DNA of 64,000 nucleotides from Parahaliea mediterranea. Its GTDB lineage: Bacteria > Pseudomonadota > Gammaproteobacteria > Pseudomonadales > Halieaceae. The notes under the pieces are model-generated. The model saw nothing but the letters and a program-made list of their open reading frames with translations, did no database searches and was not told where the DNA came from. The first letter of the stretch is position 1. Each line of letters opens with the position of its first letter. Position numbers and translations under genes: made by a program. Positions 8,313-62,200 of the stretch are shown here, in pieces. The DNA is taken from NCBI RefSeq assembly GCF_003402235.1, contig NZ_QEWO01000001.1, positions 310,001 through 374,000 on the forward strand, given 5' to 3'.

Positions 8313-8543
8313 ATGGATGAGCAAAAACCACCGACAAACGACAAGGAAAAACTCAGCCCCTGGCAGGTTGTAAGCTCGGTCTTCGCCGCCGGCTTCGGGG
8401 TTCAGAGCAGTCGCAATCGCGAAAGGGATTTCAAGCAGGGCCGGTTCGGGGTGTTTATCGCCGCGGGGATTATCTTCACCCTGCTGTTCATGGGCACCGT
8501 GTATACGGTGGTGCAGCTGGTACTGAAAAACGCCGGCCACTAG
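8313..8543 (+). CDS. DUF2970 family single-pass membrane miniprotein
   Basis: 76 residues from the ATG at 8313. An upstream in-frame ATG at 8295 would overlap the end of metH by 8 nt and add six residues; I prefer 8313 because GAGAG lies just upstream. The protein has a charged N-terminal segment (KLSPWQVVSSVFAAGFGVQ, then an Arg/Asp-rich stretch) and one hydrophobic helix at about residues 47-70. This is the layout of the DUF2970 family of small proteobacterial inner-membrane proteins, whose function is unknown. It starts 10 nt after metH and is probably cotranscribed with it. Confidence 0.75.
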   Translation: MDEQKPPTNDKEKLSPWQVVSSVFAAGFGVQSSRNRERDFKQGRFGVFIAAGIIFTLLFMGTVYTVVQLVLKNAGH

Positions 8544-8570
8544 GGCGTGAGCGGCGCCTTTGGCGCGTGC

Positions 8571-8684
8571 TTATTGCGGCATGCCAGACAGCCACAGATA
8601 CAGGCTGAAAACTACGATGGTGATAATGGCGGTGGCCGCAATTGCGTCGGCGCTGCCGTCGGTGTGCTGGGATTGACCTGACAT
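8571..8684 (-). CDS. Predicted 37-residue membrane miniprotein
   Basis: A short frame starts at ATG 8684 behind a near-perfect Shine-Dalgarno AAGGAGT (7-nt spacing) and ends with TAA at 8573-8571. The first 15 residues are polar (MSGQSQHTDG...), followed by about 20 hydrophobic residues (AIAATAIITIVVFSLYLWL) and a short SGMPQ tail, that is, one transmembrane helix. I do not recognise the family; the size is like that of small subunits of membrane complexes such as CydX or CcoQ, but nothing in the sequence shows that. It is convergent with the DUF2970 gene and divergent from cysI. The strong RBS and clean hydrophobic pattern are the reasons for calling it real. Confidence 0.6.
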   Translation of the reverse strand: MSGQSQHTDGSADAIAATAIITIVVFSLYLWLSGMPQ

Positions 8685-51495: not shown

Positions 51496-52425
51496 CTAAC
51501 AGCGGATGCCAAAGGCCAGCAGGCCCCGGCCCAGCACCTCGTCCAGGCGCTCGCCGTCACCTTCGTTGACCTCCAGGGCCTTCAGGCCCAGTTCCCGGTA
51601 ACACTCGCGCCGGCGCAGCCGGGCAGACAGCTCGCCGCCCTCCACGTTGCTGTCCCAGCAGTCGATATAGACATTGCCGCGCGGCAGGTAGAAGTCGGCG
51701 TAGAGCGGCTCTTCGCAGGGCAGTGCCCGGTGATGGGCATGCACCAGTTGCGCCAGGTAGAGCCAGTCGCACACTTGCCGCTGCAGGTTGGAATTGAGCT
51801 GGTGACCATCCAGCGCAGAGCGCGCGGCGGCATCAGCGGCGGCAAACAGGTCTCGCTCGATGGCCTCGTCATCCTCACCACTCTCTACGCCACCCGCTGC
51901 GCCTTCCCCGGCTGCTGCCGGCAACTGGCCGGCGGGTAGCAGGCGCGACAGCTCGCGCTGCACCACCGGGTGATCCACAATTTCATGGGGCCAGGTCACG
52001 TAGAAGGTGCCGTTGTTTTCGCTTTCGGCCTGCTGCCCGCCCCAGGCCTGGCCGAGATCGGTCAGCTCCCAGCCGAGGATGCTGTGCTGCTGCAGGCCGA
52101 TTTCCGCCAGCGCCCGGTTGATGCTGCGGGCGTGAACGCCGGGGAAAAAGCGCCGCAGTGAGGCGGCGGTCATGCGCTGGTTGGATTCAATGGCGCTGAG
52201 CAGCGGATGCTCCACCAGCGCTGCCGGCCACACAATATACCGCCCGAAGCGTTGGCTGTTGCGGTAGCTGCCGCCTTCGTACTCGCCCTTGGGGGTGAGC
52301 GTCCAGTTGTCTGAGCGGCGCTCAATCCAGCCATAGTCGCGCAAGGTCACAAAGAGTTGCTGCAGGGGCAGGTCCAGCGCCTTGGCCAGGGCCGTGGTGG
52401 ACAGTTTGTCGGCGGCTTCGCTCAC
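51496..52425 (-). CDS. Winged-helix protein with a nuclease-like C-terminal domain (unknown function)
   Basis: 309 residues from a GTG at 52425. Two winged-helix-like segments are visible: STTALAKALDLPLQQLFVTLRDYGWI (about 9-34, read as LAKALDLPLQQLFVTL), as in phage antirepressor KilAC-type domains, and MTAASLRRFFPGVHARSINRALAEIGLQ (about 84-111). An acidic, low-complexity linker follows (about 165-190). The C-terminus (about 235-309) has YADFYLPRGNVYIDCWD and RRRECYRELGLKALEV, reminiscent of the D-x(n)-D/E-x-W pattern of Vsr/DUF559-type PD-(D/E)XK folds. DNA binding and cleavage are inferred, not shown. It lies 7 nt after the dUTPase-like gene. Confidence 0.65.
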   Translation of the reverse strand: MSEAADKLSTTALAKALDLPLQQLFVTLRDYGWIERRSDNWTLTPKGEYEGGSYRNSQRFGRYIVWPAALVEHPLLSAIESNQRMTAASLRRFFPGVHARSINRALAEIGLQQHSILGWELTDLGQAWGGQQAESENNGTFYVTWPHEIVDHPVVQRELSRLLPAGQLPAAAGEGAAGGVESGEDDEAIERDLFAAADAAARSALDGHQLNSNLQRQVCDWLYLAQLVHAHHRALPCEEPLYADFYLPRGNVYIDCWDSNVEGGELSARLRRRECYRELGLKALEVNEGDGERLDEVLGRGLLAFGIRC

Positions 52426-52432
52426 GCGTGCA

Positions 52433-53083
52433 TCAGGCTCCGTTCAAGGTGCGGTAGCGTTGTTCCAGGGCGCGATACACCTGATCGGCAAAATCCGCCG
52501 CGCCTTCGTCCAGCGCCGCCATCAACTCCACCAGGTGCTCATTGTCTTCCCGGCCCTGCCAGTTCTTGATGTAGCTGCCGTCTTTGTAGCCGTTGTCCTG
52601 GCGGAAAAAATTGAGCACGTTCTTGCCCACATAGGCGCTGTACAGAGACTGGAAATCCAGCCCCGCCGCCAGCATCAAATCCCAGAAGCGCGACACGCAA
52701 AAGCCCTTGCTTTGCAGGGCGTGTTGCGCCAGCGCCTCGGTGGCCTCGCGCACATCCAGCGCGCGCGGTGTGTAATCCGCCACTTCCGCCGCGATGTCCG
52801 CGGCCATGTCGGCAATCAGTGCGGCATCGTCGCCATCGCGGCCGGTGCCGGGGGTAAACAGGGCCGACAGGCCAAAGTGCCAGATGTCGATCACTTCCAG
52901 CCGCACCTGCTCCATGTCCGGCTCCTGCTTCTTCCACCACTTGTAACCGTAGTGTTCGATGAGCTCGCCGCATTCAATCCAGATGGCGCGATACCACGCA
53001 AAATTCTGCTCAATCCAGTGCGCATGAATCCGGGTGTTCATCCGATGCTGCATGGCCAGCATGTTTTCCAGTGCCTGTTGCAA
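52433..53083 (-). CDS. All-alpha dUTPase-like NTP pyrophosphatase
   Basis: 216 residues from a TTG at 53083 preceded by GAGGT; an in-frame ATG at 53131 is the alternative, with less family-like residues in between. The dimeric dUTPase pattern is present: a long helix with IECGELIEHYGYKWWK (about 37-52; the E-x3-E metal motif) and EVIDIWHFGLS (about 63-73; E-x2-D), then KNVLNFFRQDNGYKDGSYIK (read as VLNFFRQDNGYK) near the C-terminus, which resembles the nucleotide-binding lid. It would hydrolyse dUTP/dUDP to dUMP. It sits in a same-strand row between a channel and a winged-helix gene. Confidence 0.8.
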   Translation of the reverse strand: MQQALENMLAMQHRMNTRIHAHWIEQNFAWYRAIWIECGELIEHYGYKWWKKQEPDMEQVRLEVIDIWHFGLSALFTPGTGRDGDDAALIADMAADIAAEVADYTPRALDVREATEALAQHALQSKGFCVSRFWDLMLAAGLDFQSLYSAYVGKNVLNFFRQDNGYKDGSYIKNWQGREDNEHLVELMAALDEGAADFADQVYRALEQRYRTLNGA

Positions 53084-53152
53084 AGTGTTACCTCGTTGGT
53101 GCGATGAAGGCTGCCCGGCAGCCGTCAGCATAGCAGCTGCCGGGGCCCCGGC

Positions 53153-54403
53153 TCAGTCGTCTATGGCGGCCCAATTGCCGGGGATGTTGTCCTCCACCAG
53201 TTCATTGATACTGATGCTGATGATGTTGTGATCCTGTCCCACCTCGGCGGCGAACAGGGATTCCTTGCTGCTTCGAGCGATTACCATGGACAGTGGGTAT
53301 TTGCGCCGCAGCCACAGGGCGGTGCGCAGGTTGTCCTCTTCGCGCCCGGTGCCCAGTACAAACACCGTATTGTCGCCGCGCACTTCCACCGCGTCGCTGA
53401 CCTGGCGCCACACTTCCGGGTGGGAGATATCGCCATCGTATATCTCGCGCCGGTAGCTGCCGGAGAACGCCATCTGCTCATCGGCCACCAGCACCCGCCG
53501 GCGGGCGTCCCTGTCGATGATGAAGACGGTGGCCAGTTCGTCGATGGCGCAGCGCTGCAGCTCTTCAAGGATGGTCTGCCCGAAGCGGCCGAAGCCGGCG
53601 ATGATGACCACATCCTTGGAACGGGTATCGCGAAAGTGCTGGATCATGTGGCTGCGCACCAGGCCGGCGGCGGCCAGGTGATAGGTGTTGAAGGTTTCGC
53701 ACTGGCGGGCCACCCGGGTATCGGACATGGCGCGCATAAAGCGCAGGTTACCGCAGTGAATCACCACTCGCGAGCCAATGTCCGGCTGCTGCCTGAGCAA
53801 TTTGCTGGCGGCCTCGTAGCTGCGCAGGCTGTTGTCATCCAGCAGCAGGATTTTGCGCGCCCGGTGTACCTTCAGCTGGTTGAGGCAGAACTCGTGGGTG
53901 ATATCACCGATCATCACCAGCGCGTCGAAGCTGTGCTTGAACTCGTCGGTCACCGAGCTTTCAAAAGCGGTGTCGCTTACCACCACCACCGGCACTTTGG
54001 GGTTGCGCTTGCGCAATACCCTCAGGTAACTGAAGGTCAACTCCCCGTGCCCCACCACCACGATATGGTCCTGCAGGCGGCGGTACTGCCAACGGCGCGG
54101 CGCAATGGCCTTCAGCAGTGCTTCAATCAGTGTCGACGCTGCAAGGATGGGGGCACCAAAAAACGACAGCCACAGCAGGATGCGCGCCGGTAGCGAGCCC
54201 CCCTGGGGTGTGCCAAGGTCGGCGCCCCCCACCACAAACAGGGTCAGGGCGTAGTAGGCTTTGCTCAGCAGGGAACCTTCGGCCACCGCCGGGCGTTCGC
54301 TGACCGTCACGCCAAGTTCAAAGGCCACAATGGCCCCCACAAAGAAAAACAGCGCGCCGGCGGTGCGCCAGGGGAAACGTCGTCTTATTTGTATGGGTTG
54401 CAT
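53153..54403 (-). CDS. Two-helix ion-channel-like protein with two RCK/TrkA-N domains
   Basis: 416 residues. Two membrane helices (about 14-34 and 73-95) flank a pore-loop-like segment (about 47-66) that reads YYALTLFVVGGADLGTP. The normal K+ filter TVGYG is replaced by VVGGAD. The cytoplasmic part has two Rossmann RCK/TrkA-N domains, with HIVVVGHGELTF (about 112) and VVIIAGFGRFGQTI (about 259), and IIDRD and GDISHPEVW consistent with nucleotide binding. Overall this is a 2TM-RCK channel or channel-like sensor. Potassium selectivity is doubtful because of the filter. It starts 46 nt before the DUF2894 stop on the same strand. Confidence 0.75.
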   Translation of the reverse strand: MQPIQIRRRFPWRTAGALFFFVGAIVAFELGVTVSERPAVAEGSLLSKAYYALTLFVVGGADLGTPQGGSLPARILLWLSFFGAPILAASTLIEALLKAIAPRRWQYRRLQDHIVVVGHGELTFSYLRVLRKRNPKVPVVVVSDTAFESSVTDEFKHSFDALVMIGDITHEFCLNQLKVHRARKILLLDDNSLRSYEAASKLLRQQPDIGSRVVIHCGNLRFMRAMSDTRVARQCETFNTYHLAAAGLVRSHMIQHFRDTRSKDVVIIAGFGRFGQTILEELQRCAIDELATVFIIDRDARRRVLVADEQMAFSGSYRREIYDGDISHPEVWRQVSDAVEVRGDNTVFVLGTGREEDNLRTALWLRRKYPLSMVIARSSKESLFAAEVGQDHNIISISINELVEDNIPGNWAAIDD

Positions 54404-54449
54404 GGCGTCGCGAAAAAAAGGCCAGCTTAGCGGCGGTGGCCCGGCCCGT

Positions 54450-55223
54450 CTATGGCGGGCTCAGCTTTTCGAGATACAGCAGGGTGTTCAGCCAGGCCAC
54501 AAAGCGCGCACTGGCCGGGGCGGATAACTGCTGCATGTTCGCCAGCGCCCGAGTGGCGAGTTTCTGCGGGTTCAGTGGGCCGGATTCCTCGGGTGCTTCT
54601 GCCACCGAGTGCGCCAGCAGTTGCTCGGCGCCGCTGCGCTGCATGCGCTGCCGATAGGAGCGCGCCGAGCGCAGTTCACCCCCTTCCACTGCCAGCCCGT
54701 ATTCCGCCATCAGCTGCTGCTCCTGCTGGCGCAACTGCGCCTCCAGCGCGCCGCTGTCTTGATCCAGCGGCGAATCCCGGTGGAGCGCTTCAATCTGCAT
54801 GACCAGTTCCGCCAACGGCCCCGGTGCGCGGGCCGCCGCCTGCCCGCGCTGCAGGCGCGCCAGCGCGCGCCGGTCCCAGTGCTCCAGCGCGGTGTTGATT
54901 GCAGGCACCAGCGCCGGCGCCTGCTGGTGCAGCGCCTGGGCCTGAGTGATCAGGTCTTCCCGCGCGGTGGCCAGCGCATCGGCAAACTGTGCCAGCGCCT
55001 GCCGGGCGCGCTCGCCATACCACTCGGCCAGGGGGCCTTCTGCCAGCTGGCAACGCGTGATGAGCCCGCTGAGGTAGGCAAAGCCCAGCGGGTCCAGGCG
55101 CTGGGCACCAATGCGCTCCAGCAGCGCCAGGGCGACGTCCAGCGCCATGGCGTCAAGGTCCGGCAGCGGCTCTGGCAGGTGCAGGCCGGCTTCGGGTGGC
55201 GCGCTGCCCGGTTCAGCTGTCAC
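54450..55223 (-). CDS. DUF2894 protein, fourth gene of the DUF3348-DUF802 motor-like operon
   Basis: 257 residues from a GTG at 55223 that overlaps the OmpA-like stop by 11 nt. It is predicted mostly helical and cytoplasmic, with no signal or membrane helix. The first third (about 20-60) contains LDVALALLERIGAQRLDPLGFAYL, here read as ALLERIGAQRLDP; the end has RARSYRQ-like basic residues and FVAWLNTLLYLE, typical of DUF2894 (PF11445). Function is unknown. The family is known to me mainly as the last gene of this four-gene cluster in proteobacteria, so it probably interacts with the motor-like membrane complex. Confidence 0.75.
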   Translation of the reverse strand: MTAEPGSAPPEAGLHLPEPLPDLDAMALDVALALLERIGAQRLDPLGFAYLSGLITRCQLAEGPLAEWYGERARQALAQFADALATAREDLITQAQALHQQAPALVPAINTALEHWDRRALARLQRGQAAARAPGPLAELVMQIEALHRDSPLDQDSGALEAQLRQQEQQLMAEYGLAVEGGELRSARSYRQRMQRSGAEQLLAHSVAEAPEESGPLNPQKLATRALANMQQLSAPASARFVAWLNTLLYLEKLSPP

Positions 55224-55842
55224 TGTTTTTCAACTTGGGCACCGGTGCCATTTCAACCCGGCGATTGCGGGCCCGGCCGGCTTCGTCACTGTTGGCGGCA
55301 ACCGGCTGTTGCTCGCCGAAGGCGGAGGCAAATACCAGCGACGCCGGCATGCCCTCTTCTATCAGCGCCCGGGTCACGGTCAGCGCCCGCTGGGCCGACA
55401 ACTCCCAGTTGTCGTCAAAGTAGCGGTTATCGCGCTGTATCGGCAGGTCGTCGGTAAAGCCGCTCACCATCAGCAGTTCCTCCCGCTGGGCCAGGTAATC
55501 CTGCAGTGGCCCGGCCAGGCTGGCCAGCAGCGAGCGCCCCTCGGCCTGTAAATCGGCCGAGTTCAAGGCAAACAGCACACTGCCGGAAATACCAATGCGA
55601 CCATCGCGCAGCGAAATGCGCCCCTCGGCCAGGGGGCCTGCCAGCGCGTCTTCAAGTTGCTGGCGGCGCTGTTGTTCCACCTGGCGTCGCTCGGTTTCCT
55701 GGGCCAGGTCCCGGGCCAGTTCCAGCTGGTAGCCAATCACCCAGACCAGAATCAGCACAAACACCCCCACCAGGGCAGCCATCAGGTCGCCGAAGATGGC
55801 CCATACAGGGGTTTCTGTATTGCTGTCCTGCAGGTCGCTCAC
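55213..55842 (-). CDS. OmpA/MotB-type stator protein
   Basis: 209 residues from a GTG at 55842 overlapping the DUF802 stop (GTGA). One membrane helix (about 14-38) begins with WAIFGDLMAALVG; Asp19 is placed like the proton-carrying Asp32 of MotB and the equivalent Asp of ZorB, ExbD and TolR. A short coiled-coil linker (about 40-75) leads to a periplasmic OmpA-like peptidoglycan-binding domain (about 83-200; LFALNSADLQ, VSGFTDDLPI, NWELSAQRA, NRRVEMAP). It should anchor the DUF802 channel to the cell wall and couple ion flow to motion. Confidence 0.88.
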   Translation of the reverse strand: MSDLQDSNTETPVWAIFGDLMAALVGVFVLILVWVIGYQLELARDLAQETERRQVEQQRRQQLEDALAGPLAEGRISLRDGRIGISGSVLFALNSADLQAEGRSLLASLAGPLQDYLAQREELLMVSGFTDDLPIQRDNRYFDDNWELSAQRALTVTRALIEEGMPASLVFASAFGEQQPVAANSDEAGRARNRRVEMAPVPKLKNSDS

Positions 55843-58148
55843 GACTTGGCCTCGGGGGCAAACAGCTGCTGCTGGCCGCCGAGCTGGCGCAGTTCCTCGA
55901 TGATTTCTTTCTGCGACAGCACACTGTGGTCGATGATTTCCCGGGCCTGGGCCACGTAATAGCCGAGCTGTTCATCGCTGCGCGCGCCAGAGCGCTCCAT
56001 GGCCTGTTCCATGCGTTCCAGGCCGTCGATCAGGGCCTGGTTGGCCTCGCCAAACTGGGCCACGGCGGCGCGGAAGGCTTCGCCGAGGCTGGCCACATCG
56101 CCAGCACTGCCCGCCACGTCGACTGCCAGCCCGGCCAGTTGGCCCACGCTGCCGTTTAGGTCCGCGCCGATGCTTTCGCCCAGTTCCACCAGGCTGTCGG
56201 CGGAGCGCGACACGGCGGACTGCACCGCATCCAGCTGGCTGGCCGAGGCGGACTCCATGCCATCGAGCAGCACCGCCAGGCGCTCCAGCAGCTGTTCACG
56301 CTCCTTGAGCAACTGGTTATCGCGCTCCACACTGTTGCTGAGTTCTTCGCGCAATCGGGCAATGACCTCCGCCGCGGCTTTGGGGGTTTCCGAGGCAGTT
56401 TCTATCAGGCGGGTCATTGGCGCTTCCAGGCGGTTGCCCAGCGCGGCCATATGCTCGGCTGCCACGGCTTCCAGTGCAGCCAGGCGCTCGCTTGCGGCGT
56501 CGGCGCGCTCGGCCTCGGCATCGCGCAGGGCGCTCAACTGCTCGCCGGCGGCCTTGACCAGGGCCTCAAGCTGTTCCTGCTGGCGCTCCAGCAATTGCTG
56601 CTGGGCGGCCTCGCCCTGTTCCTGCTGCCGCGCCTGGGCACCTTGCAATGCCTGCAGCTGCTCTAGAATGCTGCTGGCGCCCTTCGCTTCGCTCTCGCGC
56701 AGGGCCGCCAGTGCCGCACCGCTTTGCGCCAGCAGCGCCTGCAGGCGCTCGTCCTGCTGCTGCAAGCGCTGGGCCTCGGCGCTGGCGCTGGCTATTTGAT
56801 GATCCTGCAGTATCGCCTCCAGCGCCTGCAGACGCGCGATGCCTGCCTCGGCGCGCCTGGCATCGCCTTCGGCCACGGCGTCCAGGGCGGCGGCGCTCTG
56901 CTCCAGCAACGCGGACATGCGCTCCTGATGCTGGGCCAGCCAGCGCGCTTCTGCCTGCTCGCGCTCGGCAACCAATGCTTCGGTGCGCTCAAACAAGGCT
57001 TCAAAGCGGGCCAGCAGCGTGGCCTGGGCATCGGCCTGGCCGGCCTGTAGGGCGCTGGCCGAGGATGACAGGCTATCGCCAATCTGCTGCGCCAGTGCGG
57101 CGTGCGACGCCAGCTGCTTATCGCCCGCGGCCACCACCTGTGCCTGCACCCGTTCGGTTGCCGCGTTCAGGTGGCCGGCCAGGTACTCCCCCTGCTCCCG
57201 GGCCAGGACAAGCAGCTCGCTGCGGGTGGATTCGCTGTGTGCGGCCAGCGTAGACACTGTGGACTCCAGCGCCGGGCGAATGCCATCGGCGGCGGCGCGC
57301 CCGCTTTCGGTGAGGCTGCTGTGCAATGTGCTGCCCACGTCTTGCGCCAGGCGGCTGAACTCGGCGCTCAGGCCGTCCTGCAGAGTCTTCTGATTCGCCA
57401 GCAGTGAATCCCCCAGTTCACTGCCCATGTGCGACAGGCGATCGACCAGTGCATCCAGGCGCTCCACCACCGCGGGCACCGCGGCGGACTGTGCTTCCAG
57501 CGCCTCGAAGGCCTGCTGGCGACGGCGATCCAGGTGATGGGCAGGAAAGCGGCTGCGGGCAAAATCATCCAGCGCCCGGCTTGCCAGCAAGCGCTCGCGG
57601 CGGCACAGCACCGACAACAGGCCCAGGCAGGCAGACGCGGCAATACCGGCAACCGATGTGCCAAAGGCTACGCCGAGCCCGGCAATGGGCGCGGCCAGGC
57701 CAGCGCGAATGGCCTCCAGTTCAGTGCTGCCCTGCAGGGCGCCCACCGCGCCAGACAGGGTGTCCACCATGCCAAAAAAGGTGCCCAGCAGGCCCAGCAT
57801 CACCAGCAGGCCCACCAGATAGGGCGTGAACAGCGGCCCGGGCAACGCCACCGGGCGCCCCTCGATACGCAGCTGCACCGGCCCGCGCAGCTCGCCGTCC
57901 AGGCGGCCCAGCCACGGTTCAAGTGCGCAAACGTTGTCTGCATCCGCAGCCGGCGCGCCAAGGGCCGCCATCAGGCGGGCGGTGCTGCGGCGAAAGCGCC
58001 ACAACTCGGTGATCCCGGCTGCGTAGGCCGCGCCGATCAACAGGGTCACCGCCAGCGCCAGCGTTGTGGCGCCAACAAACCCGGGCGCCACCCAGGCGAT
58101 AACGGCGGCACCGGCCAGGCCGATAAGGAGGAAAAGCAGTCTATTCAT
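55839..58148 (-). CDS. DUF802 protein: MotA/TolQ/ExbB-like channel with long cytoplasmic tail
   Basis: 769 residues from ATG 58148 (a GTG two codons upstream is possible). Helices at about 3-21 and 25-46, a 60-residue cytoplasmic loop, then the MotA/TolQ/ExbB signature: helix 107-128 with GLLVMLGLLGTFFGMVDTLSG and helix 151-181 with APIAGLGVAFGTSVAGIAAS (Thr and small residues line the ion path). From about 185 to 769 it is almost continuous alpha-helix, rich in Ala, Gln, Glu and Leu, with repeats of the type LxALxxxxAxx and QEQxxAL. This is a tail of about 590 residues. The long tail is unlike MotA, TolQ or ExbB but like ZorA. Gene overlaps show that it is made together with its stator partner. 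Confidence 0.85.
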   Translation of the reverse strand: MNRLLFLLIGLAGAAVIAWVAPGFVGATTLALAVTLLIGAAYAAGITELWRFRRSTARLMAALGAPAADADNVCALEPWLGRLDGELRGPVQLRIEGRPVALPGPLFTPYLVGLLVMLGLLGTFFGMVDTLSGAVGALQGSTELEAIRAGLAAPIAGLGVAFGTSVAGIAASACLGLLSVLCRRERLLASRALDDFARSRFPAHHLDRRRQQAFEALEAQSAAVPAVVERLDALVDRLSHMGSELGDSLLANQKTLQDGLSAEFSRLAQDVGSTLHSSLTESGRAAADGIRPALESTVSTLAAHSESTRSELLVLAREQGEYLAGHLNAATERVQAQVVAAGDKQLASHAALAQQIGDSLSSSASALQAGQADAQATLLARFEALFERTEALVAEREQAEARWLAQHQERMSALLEQSAAALDAVAEGDARRAEAGIARLQALEAILQDHQIASASAEAQRLQQQDERLQALLAQSGAALAALRESEAKGASSILEQLQALQGAQARQQEQGEAAQQQLLERQQEQLEALVKAAGEQLSALRDAEAERADAASERLAALEAVAAEHMAALGNRLEAPMTRLIETASETPKAAAEVIARLREELSNSVERDNQLLKEREQLLERLAVLLDGMESASASQLDAVQSAVSRSADSLVELGESIGADLNGSVGQLAGLAVDVAGSAGDVASLGEAFRAAVAQFGEANQALIDGLERMEQAMERSGARSDEQLGYYVAQAREIIDHSVLSQKEIIEELRQLGGQQQLFAPEAKS

Positions 58149-58150
58149 GG

Positions 58151-58849
58151 TCACTCACGTTCCAGGTGTTCATCCAGGGCCTCCACCAGCCCCAGCACGG
58201 GCAGCAGGCGGGCGTCTATTTCCGCCAGTAACAGCGCCTGTACGTCGGTTTTCAGTTGTTGTTCGGCATCGGCGTTGCCCTGTAGCAGCGCTTCGCGTGC
58301 CGCCGCCTGCATTTTTTCCAGTACGTCCGGAATGTTGCCAAACAGGCGCCGGCTGTGGGCAGACAGGGCATCCATCAGTGTCTGGTCAAGGGTTGCCAGC
58401 TGCATGAGGCTGGGGGAACAGCCGCTGAGGGCGTCGCGACAGCGCTCCTGCAGGCCGCGCGCCCGGGCGTCCATTTCGCGCTGGTGGGCGGTGTAAAACC
58501 GCCGCAGGGCTTCCCCGCCCTTGCTCTCAAGTACGGCCTCTGGCCAGCGTATGCGGGTGGCGCCGCTGCCCGGCGTCAGGCTGCGCATCACCGCGGCCAT
58601 CATGGCGGCGCGCACGCGCAGGAAGTCCTCGCGGGCGCGGGTCGGGTCTTCATCCACCGGCTCAAAGGGCTGGCGCTCCAGCAGCGCCAGCGTGTCCGCC
58701 AGCGTAACCGAGTGCGACAGGTCGATAAGGCTGCCCAGGCGCGGGCCGAACTGGCGTGATTCACCACCACCAGCGGGCCCGCCCAAGGAACTGAGCAGGC
58801 TGATCAGGCGCGTCTGGCTGAAACTGGTGGAGGTCGGCGTTCGGCTCAT
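58151..58849 (-). CDS. DUF3348 protein, first gene of the motor-like operon
   Basis: 232 residues from ATG 58849 (GTG one codon upstream possible; neither has a good Shine-Dalgarno). It is predicted soluble and helical, with FSQTRLISLLSSLG near the N-terminus, LGSLIDLSHSVTLADTLALL (about 39-58, read as LIDLSHSVTLADTL) and a C-terminal acidic helix (LLLAEIDARLLPVLGLVEALDEHLE, about 208-231). This is DUF3348 (PF11828); no activity is known. A consensus promoter lies about 100 nt upstream and a hairpin abuts the start codon. The family co-occurs with DUF802, OmpA-like and DUF2894 genes. Confidence 0.8.
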   Translation of the reverse strand: MSRTPTSTSFSQTRLISLLSSLGGPAGGGESRQFGPRLGSLIDLSHSVTLADTLALLERQPFEPVDEDPTRAREDFLRVRAAMMAAVMRSLTPGSGATRIRWPEAVLESKGGEALRRFYTAHQREMDARARGLQERCRDALSGCSPSLMQLATLDQTLMDALSAHSRRLFGNIPDVLEKMQAAAREALLQGNADAEQQLKTDVQALLLAEIDARLLPVLGLVEALDEHLERE

Positions 58850-58856
58850 CACGTAT

Positions 58857-58879
58857 CGGGCGGGTGAAACACTCGCCCG
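58857..58879 (-). promoter_or_regulatory. Leader hairpin at the DUF3348 start codon
   Basis: A 10-bp stem with one mismatch, CGGGCGGGTG (58857-58866) with CACTCGCCCG (58870-58879), loop of 3 nt, ending 7 nt before the ATG. It occupies the place of the missing Shine-Dalgarno and could control translation of the operon. Confidence 0.45.
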
Positions 58880-58927
58880 GCGCGCACATTATTCGCTAAC
58901 TTATTGATTTAAGTGCGCTTTTTCTGG

Positions 58928-58939
58928 CTTGCAGGCAAG
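58928..58939. promoter_or_regulatory. Palindrome downstream of the motor operon promoter
   Basis: CTTGC-AG-GCAAG is a perfect 5-2-5 inverted repeat about 10-20 nt downstream of the predicted transcription start (near 58948). Its position fits an operator or a short RNA hairpin. No known repressor site is recognised. Confidence 0.3.
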
Positions 58940-58954
58940 AAATACCAAGCCCGC

Positions 58955-58982
58955 ATTATACGTGGGAGCCCGGTGATGGCAA
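58955..58982 (-). promoter_or_regulatory. Strong sigma-70 promoter of the motor-like operon
   Basis: Minus strand: TTGCCA (58982-58977, 5/6), 16-nt spacer, TATAAT (58960-58955, 6/6). It sits between tRNA-Leu(UAA) and the DUF3348 gene, so the operon does not depend on the tRNA promoter. Confidence 0.75.
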
Positions 58983-59014
58983 GGGCGCGCCCACGTGCCA
59001 GCCGGGCCGGCATG

Positions 59015-59103
59015 TGGTGCGACGGGCGGGACTTGAACCCGCAAGGCCTGTTAAAGCCGGGGGAGTTTAAGTCCCCTGTGTTTACCAATTTCACCACCGT
59101 CGC
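59015..59103 (-). tRNA. tRNA-Leu (anticodon UAA)
   Basis: 89 nt with encoded CCA. Read on the minus strand it begins GCGACGG and ends CCGTCGC-ACCA, with the anticodon loop ACTTAAACT between paired GGGG-type arms, a long variable arm, and T-loop GTTCAAGTC. An extended -10 (TGC-TATGAT, 59160-59155) lies upstream. It reads UUA/UUG. Confidence 0.95.
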
Positions 59104-59232
59104 CGGGCAACCATGAGGCAGGTGCTGAACGGCGCCCTGCCCCGAGGGGGCGGCATCATAGCACAGCGCTTGCACCAGCGGGCAAGGCGCGGCGTGCTAC
59201 ACTGCCGCTACCATCATCGAACCCGCCACTGC

Positions 59233-62200
59233 ATGCGTCTGCTCGCTGTCCTGCTGATAGCCCTGCTACTGGGCGCCCTTGTGCTGACCGGCGCCACAGC
59301 GTGGGTGTTGCAGTCGCCCGAGCGCAGCGTGGCCGCGCTAAAGTGGGCCGTGGCAACGTTCAGCGACCTGCGCCTGGAGCTGACAAACGCACGGCTGGCG
59401 CCGGCGGACGATGCGCTTTCTGCCGGGCAGATTCTGCTCTACCAGCAGGACAGCGATGCCCTGCCCCTGCTCAGTGTGCAGAATTTCCAGGCCACATTGA
59501 CCCCGCACCGGCTGCCCCTTGACCGGCTGCAGGATGCCCGCCTCAGCGCCGACAACCTCACCATCTACATTGCCGCCCACGACAGCACCGAAGACCCAAG
59601 CCCGGCCCGCTGGATGAGCTATCTGCGCTGGCTGCCCCGGCGCCTGGACATTGGCTCGGTGCATCTGGTGCGCCAGGGTGAGGACATTCTGGTGTTCCCC
59701 CTGCGCGACCTCAGCGGCGAGCGCGACGGCGCCGGCAGCTACCGCCTGCATGCGGTGGGCGATTTACACGGCGAGCCGCTGGATACCACGGTGTACCTTT
59801 ACGCCCTGCGCAGCCGCAGCGGCTTTCGTGGCATACAGCTGCGTGCCGAGCTGCACGCCACGCGCAGCGCCCGGCTGGCCATTCTGCAAGGCGAGGTGCT
59901 GGGCGGCGTGGAGGATTTCAGCTACGACCTCAGCCTGAATGCCGCTCTGCCGGATATCACCCAGCTGGACGGTATCAGCGCGCAACTGGCGGGCCTGGAG
60001 GATGCTCTGGACGGTAGTGAGGGGGCGGTAGAAGGCGCACTGCAAATACGCGGCAGGCTACAGGGCGACAGCCGGCAGTTTCACCTCAGTGACGCCGAGT
60101 TTGCCCTGCTGAACGCCCCGCGCTACGAATTTATCGCCCGCGGCACCTTTGACTACCGCGGCCCTGGCGACACGCTGTTACAGGCCCGGGCCAGCGGCCA
60201 GATGGAGGAACTGGGCCTGCTGCTGAACTGGTTGGATATCGACCTGTCCAGCCTTGGCAGCGCCAGTGCCGAACTCCAGCTACAGGGCCCGCTCAATGCG
60301 CTGGCGGTACCCGAATTCACCCTGCAAACCCGTCACCAGCGCGGCCTGGAACTCAGCTTGCAAGGCAGCCTGGCCGCCGGCGCCCTCACCGCCTCAAGCT
60401 TGCAGCCCGAGGGCAACGCCATTCAGGTGCGGGCCCGGGGTACTGGCCTGAGCGTGCTCAAGCAGTGGCTGGGGGAGCTACCCTTCGAGCCAGGCCCCTG
60501 GCAACTCGATGCCACCCTTGGCGGCGGCCGCCAGCAGGCCACCTTGCGCGATATTCGCGCCCGACTCGGCGAGGCCGGACAAACCGAGATTATCGCCAGC
60601 GGGACCATTGGCCCGGTGAGCCTCACCCCGCCCTTTGGCGCTGCCTCGGTGCGCGGCATCGATCTGGACCTGACCCTCAAGGCCAGCTCGGCGGCGCAGG
60701 TCAACCAATGGTTTGATCTACAGCTGGACGAAGACCACCAGCTACACGCCACGGCCCACGCTGGCGGCAGTGCCGACAATCTTAAGATCAGCGCGGGCAG
60801 CGCCGAGCTAAACAGCAGCGACCTCAGCGTGCACCTGAGCGAGTTGACCGGCGAGCTGGATGCCCGGTGGCAGCCCAAGGGGTTTGCCGCCGCCCTCAGC
60901 GCCGGCCTCAGCGATACCAGCGCCCTGTCACAGTATGTTGCCTCGCCGGTGCCGGTGCTCGGGGCCGTGAACCTCACCGCCAGGTTGCAGCAGGCCGGCA
61001 CACAGTGGCAGCTCAAAGACCTGCGCGGCGGCATCGACAGCGAACAGCTGGCGCTTGAGGTACAGGGCAGTATCGACCACCTGCCCACCCTGGCCGGCAC
61101 CCGGCTAACACTGGATTTTGCCCGCCTGGATTTGCGCAACCTGCTGCACAACCAGCTGGATGACTTTCGCTACCCGGCGCCCCTGGGCCGCCTGGCTGGC
61201 AATGTGGCAGTACGCCGGCAAGCGGGCCGCTGGAATATACCGGCGTTTACCTTGGCCAGCGACCACGCCGAGGCCCTGCGGATTAATGCCAGCGGCGCCC
61301 TTGGCGACCTGCTCGGGCAACCTGCCGGCGAGGTAAAGGCCGAGCTGGCAGCCAGCCCGGCCCTGCTCAAAGCCTTGAGCGGGCGCAGCATGGCGCCCCT
61401 CAAAGCGACACTGGACCTTGCTGCCAACGCCAATCGCTTTGCCTTCACTACCCGCGGCACACTCGGCGACAGCCCGCTGCAGTTTGCCGGCGAGCTAACG
61501 CACCAGGGTCGTAAGATCACCCACCTGCAGGCGCGTCTCAGCGCCCCCTCGCTGCAACTGGCGGACCTCGGCCTGCAGGCCAGCGGCAAGGCACCGGCAA
61601 CAGCGGCAGCCTCCCCGGGGCTTGATGTTTCACTGGAGGACTTAATTGCCCGCCTGCCGCCCTACCCCCAGCAACTGCAATTGCAGCTGGGCAGGCTGCG
61701 GGGCGAGCGCATTGATGTGCAGGATATCGACCTGGCGCTGGAGGGCAGTGCCGGGCGCTACGTGTTGCAACGCATGAACTTTCGCGGCGACCGTTCGCGG
61801 CTGGAACTTGCCGGCCTGATCGATCTGGCCGCCGCGCCACCGGCGCTGAGCCTCGGTGGCCAGGCCCTGGCGCTGGACATGCGCCAGCTGGTGAAGGATC
61901 TGGGCCTGCAGGCCGATGTGGCCGGGATACTCACCCTGCGCGGTGGGGTGAGCGCCCGCGGCCAGCGCGCCAGCGAATGGCTTGCCAGCCTCGATGGTAA
62001 CCTGTCGATGGCCCTGCAGGACGTGGAGATACAGGGCGCAGCCTACGACCTGCTGGCCACCGACCTGCTGGCCTGGATTTACTCCGGCGCGGCCCTGGAA
62101 ACCTCCACCCATGTGGACTGCAGCATGGCCAGCTTTACCCTGCGCTCCGGGGTTGCCCGCAGTGACAATCTGTTTATTGAATCGCCGCGCATGCTGGCCA

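Follow-up and report, generated by a model that had tools for sequence, protein, structure and literature searches.

A complete Zorya type III operon in Parahaliea mediterranea, with a conserved tip on the long tail of its ZorA protein

What kind of machine is encoded by a four-gene, motor-like operon of Parahaliea mediterranea (Halieaceae), and what would it do in the cell? The operon lies in the window analysed here, a whole stretch of 64,000 nucleotides (assembly GCF_003402235.1, contig NZ_QEWO01000001.1, positions 310,001 to 374,000 of the forward strand); the coordinates given below are those of the window. A preliminary description had called the architecture ZorAB-like, which is right in kind, and had regarded the families as named only as DUFs, which is out of date: the system already has a name, and its parts have been components of Zorya type III since 2021 (PMC8565338). 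PADLOC models of this type match all four proteins, DUF3348, ZorA3, ZorB3 and DUF2894 (Table 1), and the match of ZorA3 spans residues 2-764. The motor gene pair is enclosed by the genes for DUF3348 and DUF2894, as in the definition of type III, which according to PMC8565338 was drawn from 6,401 gene pairs (printed as zorBC) flanked by genes of these two families. Judged by sequence, the operon has all the parts of Zorya type III and is an ordinary example of it. No match to ZorC, ZorD or ZorE was found among the four operon proteins (PADLOC models, E ≤ 1) or in the two direct neighbours of the operon (E ≤ 1e-20). The names of the flanking components conflict between sources: DUF3348 is ZorF and DUF2894 is ZorG in PMC8565338 and PMC11890865, while the PADLOC-DB v2 models call them ZorG3 and ZorF3, respectively.

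The gene set is fixed across the relatives that we compared. The order DUF3348-ZorA-ZorB-DUF2894 was found in 127 of 133 regions, and the remaining six are cut off where a contig ends. By set, the order is present in 31 of 33 Halieaceae regions (a circular figure, as the search models were built from this set), in all 20 regions from a genus taken as Stenotrophomonas (chosen by hand from 84 positives, not at random), and in 76 of 80 named loci, which are the best 80 of at least 552 confirmed relatives, picked by likeness to ZorB alone. Four named loci (L067, L071, L080 and L103) duplicate Halieaceae loci; counted as distinct places, 123 of 129 are complete. Positions in these comparisons are those of the first matched piece of each gene, which for at least two ZorB genes is a short piece of the correct open reading frame (ORF). 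The count of distinct zorB genes was 126, with one merged pair (L184 with L139) being an artefact. Over the stretch compared, zorB is identical between contig C1 of genome G018 and Haliea salexigens NZ_AUHJ01000001.1, and between contig C31 of G028 and HTCC2148 DS999222.1. Among the 140 genomes of the family, DUF3348 occurs in 37 and ZorB3 in 36 of these 37; in the sole genome with DUF3348 and no ZorB3 (G122), the DUF3348 gene faces the end of a 4,691-base contig and stops at base 92 of it. The co-occurrence of the four families is thus non-random, an outcome in favour of the preliminary description, which had set this as a test.

ZorA3 is a channel subunit with a long cytoplasmic tail, again in agreement with that description. 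Simple hydropathy gives hydrophobic stretches at approximately residues 1-29 and 21-51 (overlapping), 104-134 and 159-185, with T125, T166 and S167 as polar pore residues. The GLLGTF and FGTS motifs are invariant or nearly so in 17/17 aligned relatives, and the GTF and TS motifs align with the same motifs of a type I-like ZorA. A match to the MotA superfamily, which had been proposed as a test, was obtained both with the PADLOC ZorA1 model (2.1e-08) and with the N-terminal profile, whose single PDB match at E ≤ 1 is chain C of 8vvn (Table 1), the type I ZorAB of Shewanella (PMC11890865). The label DUF802 did not hold for this protein: the Pfam model (PF05650, 53 positions) has no match in it at E ≤ 1, and a scan of the whole genome at E ≤ 10 gave four matches, all elsewhere than zorA3. 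The same model matches the mid-tail, a fast-changing region, in all three type III ZorA relatives scanned.

The tail (20% Ala, 6 Pro) is not conserved evenly along its length. Identity was averaged over blocks of 20 residues in a set of 124 ZorA proteins of type III: pore blocks (101-180) have values of 0.74-0.87, mid-tail blocks (401-480) have 0.12-0.29, and the block at 721-740, close to the end of the protein, has 0.84. This set comprises 32 of the 33 Halieaceae regions (the ORF of G139 was unclustered), all 20 from Stenotrophomonas and the 72 of 80 named loci whose ORF retains the pore motif; when only the last 200 residues are compared, 120 distinct sequences remain. The core of the conserved tip reads RSDEQLGYYVAQAREIID in ZorA3 of the window (residues 725-742). 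Its strict form, RSDEQ[LM]xYYVxQAR[ED][IV][IV]D, is present in 103 of the 124 proteins (99 of the 120 distinct ends), and the 21 proteins without it are two cut or masked sequences and 19 near variants. Among the 103 proteins with the strict motif, the spacing between pore and tip ranges from 288 to 777 residues. Seven type I-like loci were also examined, and in the four where a ZorA ORF was found this motif is absent. Since the spacing varies and the tip is as conserved as the pore, we infer that the tail is free in length but that its tip has to make contact with something. The first candidates for this contact would be DUF3348 and DUF2894, which every locus carries unless a contig end interrupts it. 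In the literature on type III Zorya available to us, which consists of few relevant papers in part-text, we met no statement of a conserved tip on a tail of free length, and no novelty is claimed. As a side observation, the ZorA3 ORF of locus L076 has 1458 aa and ends in the tip motif with one change; its start was likely called too early, because the ORF begins upstream of the DUF3348 gene.

The second motor protein, ZorB3, has a single membrane helix (approximately residues 11-44, simple hydropathy) and a C-terminal OmpA domain (residues 90-194, E = 1.1e-18). The membrane aspartate that had been noticed in this MotB/OmpA-like partner, Asp19, is invariant in 15/15 aligned proteins. T130, D131, R152, R194 and R195 are likewise invariant in 15/15 and align with motif positions of a type I-like ZorB; by our own mapping from the residue lists in PMC11890865 they are likely the wall-binding residues. 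Phe129 occupies the position of the type I His. Among the matches listed (25 of 42), the only NCBIfam model that ZorB3 passes is PRK09040 ("hypothetical protein"; 345 bits, cut-off 194), and its scores with MotB-type models are under the cut-offs, e.g., 99.1 vs 283 bits for PRK09038 (MotD).

The two remaining proteins appear to be helical throughout. AlphaFold2 models of DUF3348 (mean predicted local distance difference test score, pLDDT, 84.7; predicted template modelling score, pTM, 0.81) and of DUF2894 (mean pLDDT 83.7, pTM 0.60) are both all-helical, and a GPLN[PS] block occurs in 113 of 128 DUF2894 proteins. In sequence searches against Pfam and NCBIfam, no nuclease, helicase or other enzyme family was recognised in either protein. 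Profile searches of the PDB gave a best E of 2.1 for DUF3348 and of 0.01 for DUF2894, the latter to a TRIM5 fusion protein and unconvincing. Conserved blocks of the two families look alike by eye; however, kinship between them was rejected, as hhalign of the two profiles gave a probability of 0.3%.

The genes for these proteins form four minus-strand ORFs in one tight operon, whose neighbouring ends overlap by 4, 4 and 11 bases, in operon order; the close junctions noted earlier are confirmed, as is a promoter upstream. In positions 52000-61000 the sequence TTGCCA-16-TATAAT is the sole promoter-like site. Shuffled sequence averages 0.9 such sites, so that the scan alone is no evidence; as both hexamers and their spacing are unchanged in 3/3 genomes of the genus (that of the window counted), we take the site as a real promoter. 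It sits between a transfer RNA (tRNA) gene for leucine and the operon. The DUF3348 ORF opens with GTG, and the next ATG, at 58849, is the likelier start. The features are collected in Table 1.

Table 1. Features of the Zorya type III operon and of its surroundings in the window.
Feature	Positions	Strand	Evidence
Sigma-70-like promoter TTGCCA-16-TATAAT	58955..58982	minus	11/12 consensus positions; hexamers same in 3/3 genus genomes
DUF3348 protein, 233 aa	58151..58852	minus	Pfam PF11828 2.9e-35; PADLOC PDLC00657 2.2e-78
ZorA3, 771 aa, MotA/TolQ/ExbB-type channel subunit, ~586-aa tail	55839..58154	minus	PADLOC PDLC00647 1.9e-214; 8vvn_C 3.5e-07
ZorA3 conserved tail-tip segment, residues 683-758	55881..56108	minus	block identity up to 0.84, pore-like
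ZorB3, MotB-like, 209 aa, membrane helix and OmpA domain	55213..55842	minus	PADLOC PDLC00651 1.2e-106
DUF2894 protein, 257 aa, C-terminal GPLNP block	54450..55223	minus	Pfam PF11445 4.8e-23; PADLOC PDLC00652 8.1e-26
Potassium-channel-like protein	53153..54403	minus	NCBIfam PRK10537 7.4e-07, under cut-off
dUTPase-like protein	52433..53131	minus	4.3e-38, under cut-off
Unnamed protein, 309 aa	51496..52425	minus	
tRNA-Leu gene	59015..59103	minus	
AsmA-family protein, 1118 aa	59113..62469	plus	relatives at same place in genus

On the 3' side of the operon, the genes for the potassium-channel-like, dUTPase-like and 309-aa proteins lie downstream of it throughout the genus; those for the dUTPase-like and 309-aa proteins do so in genus g28 as well. 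The AsmA-family gene lies on the other side, past the tRNA gene.

How would such a set of proteins work? We consider it highly probable that the complete type III operon encodes a wall-anchored ion motor whose tail tip meets DUF3348 and/or DUF2894. Directly established as a basis for this are the homology, the gene set and its order, the conserved residues, the conserved tip and the promoter; rotation, docking at the tip, the trigger and any action on DNA are what we infer for type III. ZorA3 and ZorB3 would most likely assemble into a MotA5B2-like motor in the membrane, in which ions passing Asp19 of ZorB and a Thr/Ser ring of ZorA (T125, T166/S167) may turn ZorA about a ZorB axle that the OmpA domain pins to the wall. 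Through the ZorA tail, this movement or a change of conformation would then be passed on to the cytoplasm; the middle of the tail would serve as a length-tolerant spacer, and the invariant tip would do the work, most likely with DUF3348 and/or DUF2894 docked to it. The motor might be switched on by a phage-caused disturbance of the wall, a trigger that the literature proposes for types I and II. In favour of a role in defence, at least one phage formed significantly fewer plaques on E. coli with the type III operon of Stenotrophomonas nitritireducens (PMC8565338).

Several findings weigh against a motor of this kind with phage defence as its task. The plaquing result, as described in PMC8565338, came from plasmid-borne, induced expression in E. 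coli and not from a native setting. No effector enzyme was recognised by sequence in the type III operon, unlike in types I and II, and the Pfam MotA_ExbB model has no match to ZorA3 at E ≤ 1. Finally, in places the locus resembles a settled part of the chromosome rather than a mobile defence system. DUF3348 was found in 3/3 genomes of the genus of the window, 37/140 of the family and 8/370 of the class (the genome of the window is within each), in 6/11 genomes of another genus and in 84/87 of one genus, at one place each (seven of these genomes give two rows, which are adjacent pieces of one gene). The last genus is likely Stenotrophomonas, because at some loci (L192, L193 and L196) the identity of ZorB to named Stenotrophomonas records is 98-100%; at others it goes down to 76%. 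Flanking genes are common within five of the six Halieaceae genera with at least two fetched loci (g1 3/3, g10 8/8, g16 2/2, g9 6/7 and g24 4/5, not g7) and mostly differ between genera; in Stenotrophomonas, sharing is confined to subclades, and some loci, such as L190, have no flanking gene in common with the others.

Inheritance was also followed with a tree of the ZorA core and ZorB, on which the 42 genus labels can be placed with 45 changes, against a minimum of 41 and a mean of 74.3 for shuffled labels. This tree was made by a quick method from 111 rows, nine of them unlabelled, in which NCBI genus names are mixed with numbered genera, some loci are doubly labelled (Haliea with g9 and g25) and the presence of near-copies raises the clustering. 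The surroundings are ordinary: of the 103 ORFs directly next to the operon at 53 loci, a single one gave a PADLOC match at 1e-20 (from 105 mechanically called ORFs, two antisense to zorB were dropped), and the commonest Pfam families among the neighbours are short-chain dehydrogenases and TonB-dependent receptors (25 of 65 families listed). We saw no sign of foreign composition, as the guanine-cytosine content is 0.65-0.70 in the operon vs 0.61-0.67 around it. The tRNA adjacency, considered as an integration scar, was rejected as well: tRNA-Leu lies by the operon in 3/3 members of the genus. At the other 30 loci scanned, all from the Halieaceae set, the only tRNA call within less than 1 kb was at L060 (tRNA-Ser, 8520-8609); it overlaps the DUF3348 match and is probably false.

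With regard to mobile elements, ZorB3 had no match among 50,697 phage records at 1e-20, and it was found in 27 of 72,556 plasmid records, all of at least 366 kb (1e-30). We rejected the notion that this rarity reflects a lower mobility of type III, as type I-like ZorA and ZorB queries gave a single plasmid record (1e-20; the queries and E limits differ). The ZorA1 and ZorA2 models at 1e-20 each matched 0/87 genomes of the likely Stenotrophomonas genus, where the controls were silent too, so that absence is not shown. Among the genomes of the class, the ZorA1 model matches 9/370, some of these matches being weak or partial, and it matches 1/11 in the genus of G365. The genome G365 itself carries a type III DUF3348 gene (L152) and a type I-like ZorA (L206) on different contigs.

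Such a pattern could mean that the main task of type III is housekeeping, as an envelope motor engaged, for example, in upkeep of the wall or outer membrane or in mechanical sensing, with the effect on plaquing being secondary or an artefact of overexpression. We regard this as unlikely, though it draws on much of the above: the near-fixation of DUF3348 in the likely Stenotrophomonas genus and its presence in all three genomes of the genus of the window vs its rarity in the class, the flanks shared within genera and subclades, the agreement of the tree with genus labels, the single defence-like neighbour, the unremarkable composition and the empty phage search. However, presence is patchy in the family and in the genus with 6/11, flanks differ between genera and are not shared at all by some Stenotrophomonas loci, and rarity on plasmids fails to separate type III from the type I-like system. 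We know of no envelope phenotype, although no search aimed at one was made. On the other hand, a defence phenotype of a homologue is in print (PMC8565338), the distribution of all three Zorya subtypes has been called typical of anti-phage systems (PMC11890865), and fixed defence systems do exist: the type III Zorya of Ralstonia solanacearum is given as an example of a highly conserved one (PMC13064858). The stability of type III at the level of a lineage is therefore not new.

A different possibility, to our mind quite improbable, is an abortive system in which infection opens the motor and the ion gradient runs down through it, DUF3348 and DUF2894 act as gatekeepers and no nuclease is needed. 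The two partners, all-helical by prediction and without a recognised nuclease or helicase family, would suit such a role, and ZorF and ZorG have been proposed as regulators of ZorAB (PMC8565338). However, a conserved tip behind a variable spacer suggests work at the end of the tail, which a simple leak would not need, a nuclease-like complex has been suggested for all subtypes (PMC11890865), and the enzyme negative for the partners comes from sequence and profile searches, which a divergent enzyme could have escaped. That the locus should be a flagellar stator or a Tol/Exb-type system instead of Zorya is hardly credible: the weak matches of ZorB3 to MotB/MotD models stay under their cut-offs among the matches listed, where only PRK09040 passes, and type III models recognise all four genes, which are adjacent. 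A wall-anchored ion motor of Zorya type III, working through its tail tip, remains the reading that we prefer, and phage defence may or may not be the main native job of type III. One may also conjecture, with considerable doubt, that beta- and gammaproteobacteria keep type III chiefly as a resident motor of the envelope rather than as a mobile immune module. Anchored in the wall and driven by ions, it would then turn or strain a long tail of free length, whose invariant tip would work a two-protein helical clutch of DUF3348 and DUF2894 in the cytoplasm; mechanical sensing of the wall would bring about phage resistance as one of its effects, without the need for a dedicated nuclease.

What makes this system noteworthy is the combination of its invariant tip, the lack of a recognised effector and near-fixation in one genus. 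No DNA-acting module has been recognised in type III, it is nearly fixed in at least one genus, and the genes around the loci examined are ordinary. Finding the contact of the tip would show whether the motor itself is the effector, and also whether some "defence" systems are resident envelope machines. The conserved tip offers a short, well-defined target for such a test.

Comparison with known systems places the operon as follows. With Zorya type III as defined in PMC8565338 it has all four components, their order and their adjacency in common; it differs from the three relatives scanned in the mid-tail, where the DUF802 repeat is unrecognised in this Halieaceae ZorA3. MotAB, TolQR and ExbBD share the channel motifs with ZorAB3, and the OmpA domain is common to MotB and ZorB3; in contrast to these systems, ZorA3 has a long cytoplasmic tail and two constant partners, and ZorB3 scores below curated MotB cut-offs. 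Zorya types I and II (ZorABCD and ZorABE; PMC11890865) share with type III the ZorA core and ZorB (weak model matches; 8vvn), the membrane Asp, the long tail and the likely wall-binding residues. For these two types, PMC11890865 describes a 5:2 assembly, a defence that depends on the membrane Asp, on wall binding and on the tail, and a motor that recruits a DNA-acting module; their partners are other than the DUF3348 and DUF2894 proteins of type III.

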